64,000 nucleotides of DNA from Hirschia maritima DSM 19733. GTDB taxonomy: Bacteria > Pseudomonadota > Alphaproteobacteria > Caulobacterales > Hyphomonadaceae. Positions 2,128-8,392 of the stretch are shown piece after piece. The position numbers and the translations under genes were made by a program. The notes under the pieces were generated by a model. It was not told the DNA's origin and ran no database searches. It saw only the letters and a program-made list of their open reading frames with translations. Location of the stretch: positions 251,523 through 315,522 of the forward strand of contig NZ_KB899546.1 of NCBI RefSeq assembly GCF_000378345.1, in the 5' to 3' direction. Within the stretch, counting starts at the first letter, position 1. Each line of letters begins with the position of its first letter.

Positions 2128-2306
2128 ACCAACCTCCTGCAATTCAAGTATAGAATCTGTTATTCTTACGTTCCATCATTCTGTCTGGACCATGTGAGAT
2201 CACAAATCATTTCATCATCAAACCTCATTTGCCTTGACATAAAATGACGAAAAGTGTGAGTGACGGACAATTTGTCTTTACGAATCGCCTCTAAGGAGAA
2301 AAAAGA

Positions 2307-3776
2307 ATGGCCACCAGCGAACGCTATACAAATATCGACCTTATTGGCTTCAATCTAAAAATGCTATCTAAGGGCCGCGATCGAGCCCTTTTGATCAGTG
2401 CAGGTAGTCCTGACGATAAACAATTCCTCCTCGAAAGCTGCCGCAATATGGCAAACATCGGAGTGAATTTATACGCAACACCAGGCACACAACGTTTATT
2501 TGAAGCCCAAAACATCCAATCCTCTGCAGCCCACAAAATATCATCTGGTACGCAACCAAACATAAAAGACCTGATCCAAAATGGAGAGATAGATTTCGTC
2601 ATCAATATCCTGACGGGTGAGCAGGATTACGATGAAGGCTCAGATGCTAAACAAATCCGTTCCTTAGCAATTAAACACGGCATCCCTCTTATCACAGACC
2701 GCGAAGTCGCTGCGGAAACCATCGCAACAGTTATAAGTGATATCGAACAAGGCACATATGACTGGAAACGTCGTTCTGAAGAAAGACCTTGGGATTTAGA
2801 GGCAAAATTCCGTGAATTAGTTGAAGAGCGTGGCGGCTGGGCCAACCACCATGGTCATTTCGATAAGGCTTATCTCATTTCTCCAGAAAACCTGGCTCTG
2901 GGTTATGCAGACATGGAGAAAAAGTGGGAACTTTACCGCCACCTTAAGGAAAACTACACACACGAAGACCTTGTAGAACGTATATCTCGTGCTCTTGAAG
3001 CAGTGATGAAGCAAGGAGCAAAATACTGCCGCACAATGATTGATGCTGATAGTATAATTGGCCTGAAAGGTATCAAAGCAGCAGTTGAGGTTAAAGAGAA
3101 ATACAAAGATAAAATCAAATTTGAAATTGGAATTCAGCCACTTGAAGGTGTATTGGATGACAAGACACAAGCGCAATATGTTGAAGCTTGTAAAATGGCA
3201 GATTTCTGTGGCGGACTTCCATCACGAGACCGACCGCGCGAAAGCGAACACTTAGACTTCATCATGAAAACGGCCAAAGAACTTGGCAAAAATGTTGAAG
3301 TTCATGTCGACCAAGAAAACAATCCTTACCAGACAGAAACTGAACTGCTTGCCCTCAAAACAATCGAACACGGCATGCAAGGTCGCGTATACGGCATCCA
3401 CTCCATCTCAGTATCTTGTAAGGACAATTCCGAGCAGGACCGCATCATTAAACTTGTAAAAGAAGCTGATGTTGGAATCGTGATTTGTCCTTCTGCTGCG
3501 CTTTCCATGAAACAACTTCCAATGCCCGGACCACTTCACAACTCAATCGGTCCCTATGTGAAGATGAAGGATGCAGGTGTGCGTGTTTATCTTGGTATCG
3601 ACAACATCGCAGACCTTTTCATGCCAATCGTAGATGGAGACATGTGGACTGAAACACGCATGCTTATGGAAGCATGTCGTGATTATGACCTAAACGCAAT
3701 TGCTGACTGGGCAACACGTCCTCCTCTTCACCTTGAAGAAGAACTAATGGTTGTTCCTGAGAAAACAGAAGCTTAA
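2307..3776 (+). CDS. MGS-like domain fused to a CodA-type amidohydrolase
   Basis: This 489-residue protein joins two domains. Residues about 20-150 look like a methylglyoxal-synthase-like (MGS) domain, the nucleotide-sensing fold at the end of CarB: ATPGTQRLFEAQNI, GEIDFVINI, IRSLAIKHGIPLITDRE. Residues about 170-475 look like the TIM barrel of cytosine deaminase CodA: metal ligands H182, H184, H333 and D432 and the active-site H365 fall at spacings (32 and 67) equal to CodA H214-H246-D313. The general base Glu217 of CodA is Gln (Q336) here, in HVDQENNP, and CodA FPQEG reads QPLEG. The usual amidohydrolase N- and C-terminal beta-sandwich is absent. AAGGAG at 2293 and a TTGACA box at 2234 lie upstream. 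The phosphatase gene follows after 7 bp. The substrate is unknown; simple cytosine deamination is doubtful. Confidence 0.75.
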   Translation: MATSERYTNIDLIGFNLKMLSKGRDRALLISAGSPDDKQFLLESCRNMANIGVNLYATPGTQRLFEAQNIQSSAAHKISSGTQPNIKDLIQNGEIDFVINILTGEQDYDEGSDAKQIRSLAIKHGIPLITDREVAAETIATVISDIEQGTYDWKRRSEERPWDLEAKFRELVEERGGWANHHGHFDKAYLISPENLALGYADMEKKWELYRHLKENYTHEDLVERISRALEAVMKQGAKYCRTMIDADSIIGLKGIKAAVEVKEKYKDKIKFEIGIQPLEGVLDDKTQAQYVEACKMADFCGGLPSRDRPRESEHLDFIMKTAKELGKNVEVHVDQENNPYQTETELLALKTIEHGMQGRVYGIHSISVSCKDNSEQDRIIKLVKEADVGIVICPSAALSMKQLPMPGPLHNSIGPYVKMKDAGVRVYLGIDNIADLFMPIVDGDMWTETRMLMEACRDYDLNAIADWATRPPLHLEEELMVVPEKTEA

Positions 3777-3783
3777 ATTTGAT

Positions 3784-4242
3784 ATGACCCGCATTCTTTT
3801 TGTGTGCCTTGGAAATATTTGTCGTTCTCCGACAGCTGAAGGTATTTTCACTGAAAAGGCTAAGCGTGCGGGTCTTTCTCACCTCACTATCGATAGTGCT
3901 GGCACAGCCAGCTGGCACGCTGGCAAACCGCCATACGGCCCCATGCAGGCTGCCTGCGAGCTTCGCGGGTATGATCTCTCATACCTACGTGCAAGACAGT
4001 TTACTACGCAAGATTATGAAAATTTTGATCTCATCCTGGTTATGGATCAATCCAATTTCGACGATGTTGAAAATTTACGGCCTGAAGGAAGAAACACACC
4101 TGTAAAGTTATTCCTAGACTATGCAGAAGGCACAAACCTTACGGACGTACCTGATCCCTATTACACGCGCGATTTTGACCAAACAATTGATCTTGTTGAA
4201 TTGGCTTCCGAAAACCTGGTCAAACAACTTTCAGAAAACTAA
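3784..4242 (+). CDS. Low-molecular-weight protein tyrosine phosphatase
   Basis: The protein has 152 residues, the usual size of the cytoplasmic LMW-PTP family. The phosphate-binding loop VCLGNICRSPTAEG (C-x5-R) is near the N-terminus, and the general acid lies in VPDPYYTRDF near residue 129. These enzymes remove phosphate from tyrosine residues or small phosphoesters. I chose ATG 3784 because it gives the normal N-terminus (MTRILFVCLGNICR); an in-frame ATG at 3751 would start inside the preceding gene. It starts 7 bp after the MGS/amidohydrolase fusion and is probably co-transcribed with it. Confidence 0.93.
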   Translation: MTRILFVCLGNICRSPTAEGIFTEKAKRAGLSHLTIDSAGTASWHAGKPPYGPMQAACELRGYDLSYLRARQFTTQDYENFDLILVMDQSNFDDVENLRPEGRNTPVKLFLDYAEGTNLTDVPDPYYTRDFDQTIDLVELASENLVKQLSEN

Positions 4243-5588: not shown

Positions 5589-6161
5589 TTAGTCTTTCGC
5601 GCGTGTTTCGTAGGTCATTTCTTCTGTATTGATTACAACACGTGTACCCGGTCCAATGTGTGGCGGCACGGTAATACGCAAACCATTATCCAAAACGGCC
5701 GGCTTGTATGAAGAAGAAGCCGTTTGACCTTTTACAACCGGCTCAGTTTCAGCAATTTCAAATGTCATACGCGCAGGGAATTTAACTAGCACTGGCGTTT
5801 CATTAAACAACTGTAGAATTACAGTCATGTTTTCCTGAAGCAACGGCGCTGAATCTCCAATCAAGCTCGCTGGCACCATAATTTGTTCAAAATTTTCAGG
5901 GTGCATGAAGACAAAGTTTTCACCTTCTTGATAAAGGTAGGTGTAGTCCACCTCTTCCACAAAAGCTTTTTCTAGCTTTTCTTGTGTTTTGTGAGTGATC
6001 GATACTTTGATACCGTCAGAAATACGACGCATATCTATCGTTGTTGTTGGAGTTCCTTTACCCGGACGAAAAGACTCTGCTTTAAGAACAACGTATAATT
6101 GACCGTCAGTGTGCTCAATGACGTTACCTTTACGGATATTGGCTGCTGTTTCTACGGCCAC
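5589..6161 (-). CDS. efp: Elongation factor P
   Basis: EF-P (190 aa) binds ribosomes stalled at consecutive prolines and promotes peptide bond formation. The three-domain pattern is clear: an N-terminal KOW-like domain with ANIRKGNVIEHTDGQLYVV, the acceptor loop RPGKGTPTT with the modifiable Lys35 (Lys34 in E. coli), a middle OB domain, and a C-terminal domain ending with DNGLRITVPPHIGPGTRVVIN. The start is the GTG at 6161, preceded by AAGGTGA. The open frame continues upstream to 6302, but those codons are not EF-P-like. It is divergent from epmA and epmB, which encode the enzymes that place beta-lysine on Lys35. Confidence 0.97.
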   Translation of the reverse strand: MAVETAANIRKGNVIEHTDGQLYVVLKAESFRPGKGTPTTTIDMRRISDGIKVSITHKTQEKLEKAFVEEVDYTYLYQEGENFVFMHPENFEQIMVPASLIGDSAPLLQENMTVILQLFNETPVLVKFPARMTFEIAETEPVVKGQTASSSYKPAVLDNGLRITVPPHIGPGTRVVINTEEMTYETRAKD

Positions 6162-6320
6162 AATAATCACCTTTTTAGCTTTGGCGCGCCAATCAGTCCG
6201 AAGCAGTTCTCCGGTCAAGCGCAAATTGCAAGATTGACCTTTCCCATAGCCGTCTATACGCCTTTCGCCAAGTGCCAACCGCCACTCAATGAAGATTATC
6301 AAACAATCAGGACACAGAAA

Positions 6321-7352
6321 ATGAGCCAGACGAACTGGTGGAACAAAGAGCTACACCAGGATAAACGGCCATTTTTGCTGGCGCGTAATAAAATAAAGAC
6401 CTCACTTCGTCAGTGGTTTGAAAGTAATGGATTTCTGGAAGTTGAGTGCGGTACTCTTCAATTTTCTCCCGGAAATGAAACCCATCTTCATGCGTTTTCA
6501 TCTGATTTTCTCAATGAAGACGGTAGTATAAATCAAAAACTCTATTTACACACTTCACCTGAATTTGCCTGCAAAAAACTGTTGGCAGCTGGTGAAACCA
6601 AGATATTTGATTTTGCCCGTGTCTATCGCAATAGAGAAAACAGCCCGTTGCACTCCCCTGAATTTACAATGCTTGAATGGTATCGTGCGGAGGCCAGTCT
6701 AAAAGATGTTATGAATGACACCGCTAATCTTGCTAGAGCGGCACTCAACTCTACAAATGCTAACAACATGATGTGGAAAAATGAAATCTGCGATCCTCAT
6801 ATGGAACCAGACTTTCTGACGCTAACAGAGGCCTTTGAACGCTACGCAAAGATCGATCTAGAAAGCGTATTGGACGATACAAATGCTTTCTATATGGCGG
6901 CTGCTTCAGTCGGCGTAAATTTGCCAGAGAACTCAGAATGGACTGATATTTTCTCAGCAGTTTTAGTGTCTAAGATAGAGCATAAACTGGGCGAAGGTCG
7001 TCTCACATTCCTTTACAATTACCCAATCTGTGAAGCTGCATTAGCTCGCCCAAATCCTGATGATCCACGTTTTGCAGAGCGTTTTGAAATGTATGGTTGC
7101 GGTGTCGAACTCGCCAATGGATTTGGTGAACTCACCGATCCAGCAGAACAACGCAAACGCTTTGATGACGATATGGCATTGAAAGCAAAGATCTATAATG
7201 AAAAATATCCAATTGATGAGGATTTCTTGGCAGCACTACACCACATGCCTGAGGCATCAGGCGTCGCTTTGGGATTTGATCGATTAGTTATGTTATGCTC
7301 GGGTGCGCACAAAATTGAGGATGTCTTGTGGACACCATTTCCAAACCAATGA
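6321..7352 (+). CDS. epmA: EF-P--(R)-beta-lysine ligase
   Basis: EpmA (GenX/PoxA/YjeA, 343 aa here, about 325 in E. coli) is a paralogue of the catalytic core of class II lysyl-tRNA synthetase that attaches (R)-beta-lysine to EF-P. It has no N-terminal anticodon-binding OB domain, which separates it from LysS. Motif 2 is FDFARVYRNRENSPLHSPEFTM and motif 3 is ASGVALGFDRLVML near the C-terminus. An in-frame extension to 6099 exists, but ATG 6321 gives the family's normal N-terminus. The gene is divergent from efp (159-bp gap) and overlaps the start of epmB, so all three EF-P maturation genes are together. Confidence 0.95.
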   Translation: MSQTNWWNKELHQDKRPFLLARNKIKTSLRQWFESNGFLEVECGTLQFSPGNETHLHAFSSDFLNEDGSINQKLYLHTSPEFACKKLLAAGETKIFDFARVYRNRENSPLHSPEFTMLEWYRAEASLKDVMNDTANLARAALNSTNANNMMWKNEICDPHMEPDFLTLTEAFERYAKIDLESVLDDTNAFYMAAASVGVNLPENSEWTDIFSAVLVSKIEHKLGEGRLTFLYNYPICEAALARPNPDDPRFAERFEMYGCGVELANGFGELTDPAEQRKRFDDDMALKAKIYNEKYPIDEDFLAALHHMPEASGVALGFDRLVMLCSGAHKIEDVLWTPFPNQ

Positions 7353-8392
7353 CAAAAACACTTAAATCAAGACAAGACTTTATTGATGTCGGTTTAACAG
7401 ACACTACCTCACCCGACTGGTCTGCAATTTCAGAAAAATATGCAATTGCAATGACTTCAGAATTGGCTGAGTGCGTTCAATCTTCTGATGCAGATGACCC
7501 GGTGCTGCGCCAATTCCTTCCCTTGCCCGAAGAATTAAATTCCACACCAGATGAGCGCCTTGATCCAATTGGTGATTGGTCCCACTCCCCTGTTGAAGGA
7601 ATTGTGCATCGTCATAAAGATCGGGTGTTATTAAAAATTGTCTCAATCTGCCCAGTCTATTGTCGGTTTTGTTTTCGGCGTGAAATGGTCGGTCCAGACA
7701 AAGACAACATGCTGCGCCCAGAACAAGTAGACGCTGCAATTGAGTATATTTCAAATCATCCTGAAATTTGGGAAGTTATCCTCACGGGTGGCGACCCAAT
7801 GATGTTATCTGCCAAGCGCGCTGCAGAGCTCACCAAACGCCTTGAAGCTATTCCACATGTTAAAGTTATTCGGTGGCATACTCGCATGCCAGTTGCAAAA
7901 CCCAACCTAGTTACAAAAGAGTATGCGCGAGCAATCAAGAGCAACACTAAGTCTGTTTTTGTAGCGTTGCATGCCAATCATGCGAACGAGTTTTCATCAG
8001 CTGCCAAACAGGCCTGCGCCAATCTGATCGATACAGGTATAGCAATGGTGTCTCAGACAGTCCTCTTAAAGGGGGTCAATGATACACCTGAAGCCCTACA
8101 GGATCTCATGCGAACCTTTGTAGAAAACCGCATCCGTCCCTATTATTTGCACCATCCAGATTTAGCACCGGGAACATCACATTTCAGGATGAGTGTGAAA
8201 GAAGGACAAAAACTCGTGCAAAGTTTGCGAAACAATTTATCAGGCCTTTGCACACCAACCTATGTAGTAGACATTCCTGGCGGCGTTTCTAAAGCAATTG
8301 CAACACCGTCAGATGCGATTGAAATTGATGGCCAACTCGCATTTCGCGGGCAGGACGGCTCACTTCACAAATACCCTCCGATCGAAAAATAG
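7328..8392 (+). CDS. epmB: EF-P lysine 2,3-aminomutase
   Basis: EpmB (YjeK) is a radical SAM/PLP enzyme of the KamA family that makes (R)-beta-lysine from lysine for EpmA. The radical SAM cluster motif is C108-x3-C112-x2-C115 in CPVYCRFCFRRE, followed by ILTGGDPMML and the C-terminal YVVDIPGGVSKA with the PLP lysine. At 354 residues it is near the E. coli length, not the longer catabolic KamA. Two starts are possible: GTG 7328 with a GAGG eight or nine bases upstream, or ATG 7349, whose ATGA overlaps the epmA stop. Either way it is translationally linked to epmA. Confidence 0.93.
   Translation: MDTISKPMTKTLKSRQDFIDVGLTDTTSPDWSAISEKYAIAMTSELAECVQSSDADDPVLRQFLPLPEELNSTPDERLDPIGDWSHSPVEGIVHRHKDRVLLKIVSICPVYCRFCFRREMVGPDKDNMLRPEQVDAAIEYISNHPEIWEVILTGGDPMMLSAKRAAELTKRLEAIPHVKVIRWHTRMPVAKPNLVTKEYARAIKSNTKSVFVALHANHANEFSSAAKQACANLIDTGIAMVSQTVLLKGVNDTPEALQDLMRTFVENRIRPYYLHHPDLAPGTSHFRMSVKEGQKLVQSLRNNLSGLCTPTYVVDIPGGVSKAIATPSDAIEIDGQLAFRGQDGSLHKYPPIEK

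Follow-up and report, generated by a model that had tools for sequence, protein, structure and literature searches.

To our knowledge, the first steps of pyrimidine synthesis, through carbamoyl phosphate, carbamoyl aspartate and dihydroorotate, are taught as near universal. Here we describe a gene whose product may replace two of the enzymes involved: it occupies positions 2307-3776 (plus strand) of a 64,000-nucleotide stretch of the Hirschia maritima DSM 19733 genome (contig NZ_KB899546.1, positions 251,523 to 315,522; hereafter the window) and is an ATG-initiated open reading frame (ORF) of 489 residues in which an MGS domain stands N-terminal to an amidohydrolase barrel. We propose, at a probability of roughly 0.72, that the barrel converts argininosuccinate to dihydroorotate and ornithine and thereby replaces PyrB (aspartate transcarbamylase, ATCase) and PyrC (dihydroorotase), with the MGS domain providing nucleotide feedback. 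The role in the pathway is well supported; the substrate, product, mechanism and ligand presented below are those that we infer.

Several described systems resemble parts of this protein. PyrC and PyrB hold the proposed product and pathway position in common with the barrel but differ in that no PyrC model matches the window protein and neither gene is found where the fused gene is intact. CodA has the same barrel and metal-ligand pattern, whereas its Glu217 is a Gln in the window protein. AtzC, the N-isopropylammelide isopropylaminohydrolase (PDB 2qt3 and 4cqb), is the best match in both sequence and fold; it likewise lacks the CodA glutamate, an Asp aligning with the Gln336 place, and it hydrolyses an amine off a six-membered nitrogen ring, to which the barrel's reaction may be likened, but it is about 25% identical to the window protein, acts in herbicide breakdown and carries no MGS domain. 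The regulatory domain of CarB, which responds to UMP, IMP and ornithine, belongs to the same MGS family and is alike at the five site residues compared, whereas the window MGS falls into a separate, well-supported group with the MGS domains of ArgG and AsnRS-like proteins. The barrel is a full member of NF005365/PRK06886, with stand-alone members in Pasteurellaceae and Patescibacteria, but this family model has no MGS domain and no assigned function. Carbamoyl phosphate, finally, still needs a transcarbamylase to enter pyrimidines. In Thermococcus kodakarensis, arginine-fed carbamoyl phosphate synthesis is described, in the available part of PMC13260591, as joining arginine and pyrimidine metabolism without a carbamoyl phosphate synthetase; that route passes through carbamoyl phosphate, whereas several barrel genomes show no transcarbamylase.

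The gene and its parts are as follows.
2307..3776, plus strand: MGS-amidohydrolase fusion gene (489 residues plus stop), from the ORF and its same-genus copy
2427..2696, plus strand: MGS domain, residues 41-130 (Pfam), proposed nucleotide sensor, from PF02142 and the CarB alignment
2790..3740, plus strand: amidohydrolase barrel, residues 162-478, proposed argininosuccinate-to-dihydroorotate enzyme, from the NF005365/PRK06886 score and the AtzC/CodA fold
3312..3314, plus strand: codon of Gln336 (CodA Glu217 position), family-invariant in 36/36 aligned barrels

An earlier, sequence-only reading of the window had described a CarB-type MGS domain on a CodA-like barrel with an altered active site and without the beta-sandwich parts of CodA, and this anatomy held. 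PF02142 matches residues 41-130 with 71.4 bits (cut-off 24.1), the best solved relatives of the barrel are AtzC and CodA, and the proposed metal ligands H182, H184, H333, H365 and D432 align with CodA H62, H64, H215, H247 and D314, and Q336 with CodA E218 (gene numbering with Met1; Glu217 in the usual numbering). QPLEG (277-281) aligns with the CodA FPQEG stretch, and no counterpart of the CodA beta-sandwich was seen, with alignments to solved structures spanning residues 176-461 only. The same-genus copy is 94% identical across residues 1-486. The barrel scores 566.9 bits against the NCBIfam NF005365/PRK06886 "hypothetical protein" cut-off of 340, and its Pfam PF01979 match is weak (29.4 bits, cut-off 25). 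The dihydroorotase models TIGR00857 and TIGR00856 are not among the 12 NCBIfam matches of the window protein at E <= 1. An AlphaFold model built with 11 sequences (mean pLDDT, the per-residue confidence score, 72.7) places AtzC first in Foldseek (E 1.2e-18) with cytosine deaminases next, the best PDB matches aligning over about 300 columns.

What did not stand is the idea that the Glu-to-Gln change is an oddity of this one protein. We aligned CodA with 36 family barrels, of which 35 were tallied together (5 fused, 8 from Pasteurellaceae, 18 from Patescibacteria and 4 divergent Patescibacterial ones) and L021 was counted separately; not included were the split L022, the incomplete L024 and L026, and 16 of the 24 barrels gathered from Pasteurellaceae. 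H182, H184, D186, H333, D335, Q336, N338 and H365 are invariant in 35/35, D432, D436 and E449 are kept in every readable row (one or two rows being gapped or unread), and L021 has the matching His, Gln and Asp at 182, 184, 333, 336, 365 and 432. Because Gln336 is invariant in all 36 aligned barrels, the alignment marks it as a family signature and not a broken site. An inactivated enzyme was accordingly set aside, the metal ligands and the Gln being conserved throughout the family, as was a simple CodA-like cytosine deaminase, for which the Glu is invariantly Gln and the scores lie far under the model cut-offs (PRK07572, 90.2 of 438 bits; PRK07583, 82.3 of 403; PRK09230, 74.1 of 483).

We next consider gene content. 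ATCase was scored with TIGR00670 in 68 genomes, and dihydroorotase (TIGR00857 and TIGR00856), PyrD and ArgG in 57, covering 5 of the 38 barrel-less relatives of the window, 15 of the 61 Pasteurellaceae, and 22 barrel-positive Patescibacteria alongside 20 (ATCase) or 9 (dihydroorotase, PyrD, ArgG) barrel-less ones; gene names given without a family scan were recognized by eye. All 14 control genomes have ATCase over the cut-off. None of the five genomes whose fused gene is intact (G000, the window's own, G001, G020, G775 and G776) does, nor does any of them show a TIGR00857 or TIGR00856 match. In all five barrel-less relatives surveyed (G002, of the same genus, G004, G006, G013 and G014), ATCase and one or both of the dihydroorotase models pass their cut-offs; PyrD and ArgG matches are present in all ten. 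Since both PyrB and PyrC are absent from the intact fused genomes and PyrD is kept, we read the barrel as their replacement. In the three relatives read at this locus (G002, G014 and G004), pyrB-pyrC sits between gatA and plsY-dprA, with an extra ORF ahead of plsY in G014; in the five fused genomes gatA, plsY and dprA still lie within a few genes of each other and no intervening ORF matches pyrB or pyrC. An assembly gap was thus rejected as the explanation, the matching locus having been read through in 5/5. The window's genome has a CarB with its own MGS domain, and the sole transcarbamylase in G000, G001 and G020 is ornithine carbamoyltransferase (353-369 bits, cut-off 281). This last result bears on the possibility that the barrel is only a non-orthologous dihydroorotase, with carbamoyl aspartate made by another transcarbamylase. 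The shared superfamily and the absence of pyrC would suit such a role, but pyrB is missing as well, the cut-off assigns the one transcarbamylase of G000, G001 and G020 to ornithine, and among the ten barrel-positive Patescibacteria that lack pyrB and lie outside the divergent clade, eight have no transcarbamylase match at E <= 1e-10 (several being drafts); we consider it improbable, and favor replacement of both PyrB and PyrC.

The full-length fused gene is carried by 3 of the 41 genomes drawn as relatives of the window: the window's own, G001 of the same genus and G020 of the same family. The other 38 comprise 37 in which an MGS-like stretch alone matches, almost always within a frame of CarB length, and one without any match. 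Further fused loci are L014 (on the same contig as that of G020), L015 (G775) and L016 (G776), from Henriciella metagenome-assembled genomes (MAGs) and an alphaproteobacterial MAG, and in a Euryhalocaulis MAG (G432; L022/L110) the fused gene at L022 is split over two frames by decay or assembly error. Stand-alone barrels occur in 18 of 286 Patescibacteria genomes at E <= 1e-40 (11 over the NF005365 cut-off) and in 56 of 61 genomes of one proteobacterial family with 2-Mb genomes that we read as Pasteurellaceae; in an even draw of 398 Pseudomonadota genomes, the six matches at E <= 1e-60 are the window's and five from Pasteurellaceae. In the barrel tree, from which L099 was dropped because it runs into unread bases, the Pasteurellaceae group together at 100/100 and join the Patescibacterial L088 and L092, both from argG/barrel groups, in a 100/99 set, and the fused alphaproteobacterial barrels form a separate 100/100 set of unsure placement. 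This topology suggests that the barrel was gained twice, independently, within Pseudomonadota, each time in genomes that lack pyrB and, so far as could be seen, pyrC as well. Plasmid and phage collections returned 586 and 6 records, all below 60% identity and none covering 80% of the window protein; one, on Gemmobacter aquarius plasmid NZ_CP028919.1 (90306-91373), is a 29% identical protein annotated as hypothetical.

The family reading rests on two 9-base uptake-signal words that we take to be Pasteurellaceae marks: one of them is frequent in the loci, with 4-33 copies in 10 of 12 against about 0.1 expected, and one copy each in L082 and L086. In the 10 barrel-positive genomes surveyed among the 56, neither ATCase nor dihydroorotase passes its cut-off (0/10 each), and PyrD (258-277 bits) and ArgG are found in 10/10. 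In the five barrel-negative genomes ATCase is likewise missing (0/5), strong PyrD (>250 bits) is confined to one (G772), G754 has a PyrD match of 79 bits, and ArgG is present in four. Barrel presence thus goes with PyrD in this family (Fisher p 0.004, kinship ignored; the Fisher tests took related genomes as independent and used hand-coded input).

In Patescibacteria, the barrel keeps company with genes of argininosuccinate metabolism. ATCase passes the cut-off in 8 of the 22 barrel-positive genomes, which also show dihydroorotase matches; in the other 14 neither enzyme is seen. Among the 14, four (G433, G484, G544 and G697) carry a divergent barrel clade with no arginine or pyrimidine neighbor recognized; this clade (L025, L101, L102 and L103, from Kaiserbacteria-like genomes) retains the HxH/Gln signature and probably has another function. 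Eight of the other ten have, beside or near the barrel, an ArgG of 535-548 residues that in all eight ends in an MGS domain (Pfam, 51.5-69.5 bits), whereas the four ArgG of barrel genomes with pyrB and pyrC are ordinary frames of 419-432 residues, and the one scanned among these, that of L020, has no MGS.

The most complete group is that of G601, which reads argG-MGS, barrel, pyrD, pyrE-like (133 bits, cut-off 150), two genes and pyrF, with gaps of -4 and +1 base pairs flanking the barrel and no ATCase, other transcarbamylase or dihydroorotase match in the genome. The order is argG-MGS, barrel, pyrD in G481 (gaps of 2 and 3 base pairs) and barrel, argG-MGS, pyrD in G448; in G705 it is barrel, argG-MGS, an aspartase-like gene, pyrD and a fused pyrE-pyrF, and in G492 barrel, one gene, argG-MGS, an AsnRS-like-MGS gene and pyrD. 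G633 has argG-MGS, a barrel that runs into unread bases, AsnRS-like-MGS, pyrD and, further on, pyrF; G583 has argG-MGS, an arginine-dihydrolase-like gene and the barrel, with pyrD (other strand), pyrF and pyrE beyond; and G454 has argG-MGS and the barrel close to a contig end. In the remaining two, G670 and G434, the partner of the barrel is argH, which passes the cut-off in G670 and is an argH-like gene in two frames in G434; both genomes have PyrD and show no argG match. PyrD matches were found in nine of these ten genomes (48-307 bits), with none in the fragmented G454, and missing contigs are an unlikely cause of the transcarbamylase absence in G601 and G633 because both loci lie on contigs of about a megabase.

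Other genes in these groups deserve mention in their own right. The AsnRS-like proteins ending in MGS (Pfam; L099:9180-10598 and L094:11471-12970) stand between barrel/argG and pyrD, and the aspartase-like gene (L096:5054-6373; 509.5 bits, cut-off 510) lies between ArgG-MGS and PyrD, as if supplying aspartate. Arginine-dihydrolase/DDAH/ADI-like genes near the barrel (L092:9224-10027 and L024:3529-4401 by family scan, L090:4805-5650 by BLAST cluster) may feed citrulline or ornithine. G633 has two argG genes, of which the MGS-bearing one adjoins the barrel and the other, a 470-residue frame, lies elsewhere.

Where pyrB and pyrC are present, the neighbor of the barrel is argH in seven of the eight genomes and a purF-like gene in the eighth, G428; argH passes a curated cut-off only in L017 and L093 and is called elsewhere by BLAST clustering with these, in a cluster to which a purB-like gene of L023 belongs as well. 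These argH-barrel pairs are what speaks for a further possibility, namely that the barrel acts on some other arginine-linked compound and that its link to pyrimidine genes is indirect, but it would leave unexplained why two Pseudomonadota clades, placed apart in the barrel tree, both lack pyrB along with pyrC and yet keep PyrD, and we judge it rather improbable. Under the proposed conversion of argininosuccinate, use of scavenged arginine could, for example, be a reason to carry the barrel beside pyrB and pyrC.

In a midpoint-rooted tree of MGS domains (L088 on a long branch), the copies on barrels (6), ArgG (8) and AsnRS-like proteins (2), 16 in all, separate at 100/100 from 8 CarB copies; within a 95/95 set that contains most ArgG copies, those fused to barrels group at 100/100. 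The domain is of the CarB type by family, as the sequence-only reading had it, but its kin are the Patescibacterial ArgG and AsnRS-like copies and not the resident CarB; an MGS borrowed from that CarB was rejected because the tree, given its midpoint root, sets the two apart. Window K38 (just before the Pfam MGS stretch), T58, T61, K77 and N100 correspond to E. coli CarB K954, T974, T977, K993 and N1015, positions that we take to bind UMP/IMP and that are identical in all 24 copies. On this tree the sensor probably arrived with the pathway, one group carrying it on ArgG and the other on the barrel. UMP as its ligand is a guess based on the pathway.

How might such a route run? ArgG makes argininosuccinate, and ArgH makes or breaks it. 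Because the barrels of Patescibacterial loci adjoin argG or argH and this metabolite is common to both enzymes, argininosuccinate is the candidate substrate. Either ArgG would supply it, from citrulline, aspartate and ATP, or ArgH would do so in reverse, from arginine and fumarate. The aspartate part of argininosuccinate already holds the matching ring carbon and nitrogen atoms of dihydroorotate, the guanidino carbon being ring C2. Closure through the beta-carboxylate would give a six-membered cyclic form, and a metal-activated water would then hydrolyse the exocyclic C2-N bond to ornithine, much as AtzC strips isopropylamine from its triazine ring; we suggest this chemistry because the best fold match, AtzC, hydrolyses an alkylamine off a six-membered nitrogen ring. 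Argininosuccinate is reported to form anhydrides through loss of water, with a ring described as five-membered in the available parts of PMC4987396 and PMC6918381; the six-membered ring is our own proposal. The products would be L-dihydroorotate, which PyrD, PyrE and PyrF would carry on to UMP, and L-ornithine, which would return to citrulline where ornithine carbamoyltransferase exists and so act as a carrier of the carbamoyl carbon. The fused MGS domain would sense a nucleotide, most likely UMP, and feed back on the first committed step, a role that would fall in Patescibacteria to the MGS on ArgG. The suggestion in the sequence-only reading of a non-canonical or allosterically controlled hydrolase linked to pyrimidines thus had the right direction, with the genome context pointing to de novo synthesis and not to nucleobase deamination.

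The same chemistry leaves room for a shorter reaction: hydrolysing the guanidino group so that ornithine leaves would yield exactly N-carbamoyl-L-aspartate, and if the barrel stopped there an unrecognized enzyme would perform the dihydroorotase step. The genome context fits this equally well, but pyrC is gone along with pyrB in 5/5 intact fused genomes, and inspection of the 45 most shared gene clusters of the barrel loci brought up no second new amidohydrolase; we regard this variant as unlikely, if less so than the other alternatives, and retain direct formation of dihydroorotate.

It is important to note that a number of observations weigh against our proposal. Across Patescibacteria, ATCase is no rarer with the barrel (8/22) than without it (4/20), so that the barrel as such is not tied to ATCase loss there; the split follows the kind of gene group, and eight genomes carry the barrel together with pyrB and pyrC, which the proposal does not account for. 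In Alphaproteobacteria, G432, with its split barrel frame, carries genes resembling pyrB and pyrC ahead of plsY, at sub-cut-off scores of 189 and 219 bits. In Pasteurellaceae, the TIGR00857 matches of G750 and G774 (254-270 bits) fall just below the cut-off of 279, the barrel of G722 (L086:8465-9451) has an in-frame stop in a 1.6-Mb genome that retains PyrD, the barrel-negative G772 has PyrD without ATCase, and there is no operon: only 4 of the 12 loci read have a pyrE-like gene (called by its BLAST cluster with the pyrE of L092, which passes TIGR00336) near the barrel, at a distance of 2.0-3.3 kb and in three of them on the opposite strand. At the position of CarB T1017, the MGS domain has Leu when fused to a barrel, and Pro when on ArgG or an AsnRS-like protein. 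Furthermore, Haemophilus influenzae, a candidate barrel carrier only, is termed a pyrimidine auxotroph in the available part of a 2026 review (PMC13328217), which has three early enzymes missing and yet reports survival in pyrimidine-restricted settings by means that are unclear. A rival reading takes the barrel for a deaminase or hydrolase that salvages a nucleobase or nucleoside, with such auxotrophy behind the loss of pyrB and pyrC; the CodA-like fold also speaks for it. Against it stand the retention of PyrD in 5/5 fused genomes and 10/10 barrel-positive Pasteurellaceae surveyed, the replacement of the deaminase Glu by Gln in 36/36 barrels, and the gene groups that tie the barrel to argG, argH and pyrD; we give salvage the smallest chance of the alternatives and keep to de novo synthesis from argininosuccinate.

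The surroundings of the window gene add two features.
2293..2299, plus strand: Shine-Dalgarno-like AAGGAGA, 5' of the ATG, by direct reading
3784..4242, plus strand: low-molecular-weight protein tyrosine phosphatase gene (PF01451, 129.6 bits), 7 base pairs past the fusion stop codon

The phosphatase had been singled out as a linked gene, and the 7-base-pair spacing is correct, but the linkage does not extend beyond the genus: outside the window it was recognized (by eye) only at the same-genus copy L003, and the fused loci L014, L015, L016 and L022 have other neighbors. Because of these different neighbors we rejected the phosphatase as a partner; its position is probably incidental and the gene outside the system. 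An Rfam scan of the window found a single tRNA, and positions 5589-8392 hold an EF-P-like gene and an EpmA-/EpmB-like pair, recognized by eye.

Together, these data make it reasonably likely that there is a second de novo route to the pyrimidine ring, in which one enzyme closes argininosuccinate and releases ornithine as a catalytic carrier so that PyrB and PyrC are unneeded, with most of its variety in Patescibacteria, transfer into Pasteurellaceae and a few Hyphomonadaceae-like bacteria, and an MGS domain that moved between ArgG and the barrel. A function for NF005365/PRK06886, an MGS-barrel fusion or a route of this kind was not found in the open-licence literature among the titles and abstract openings listed, a scope that leaves subscription papers and most preprints outside, and no paper there carries the name PRK06886. 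If the proposal is true, arginine and pyrimidine synthesis would have argininosuccinate in common, in a way not found described in that literature, and the "hypothetical protein" family NF005365 and the MGS domains on ArgG would gain a function. The survival of H. influenzae in pyrimidine-restricted settings, raised in the available part of PMC13328217, would become a testable question, and auxotrophy predictions for Patescibacteria and Pasteurellaceae would be corrected.

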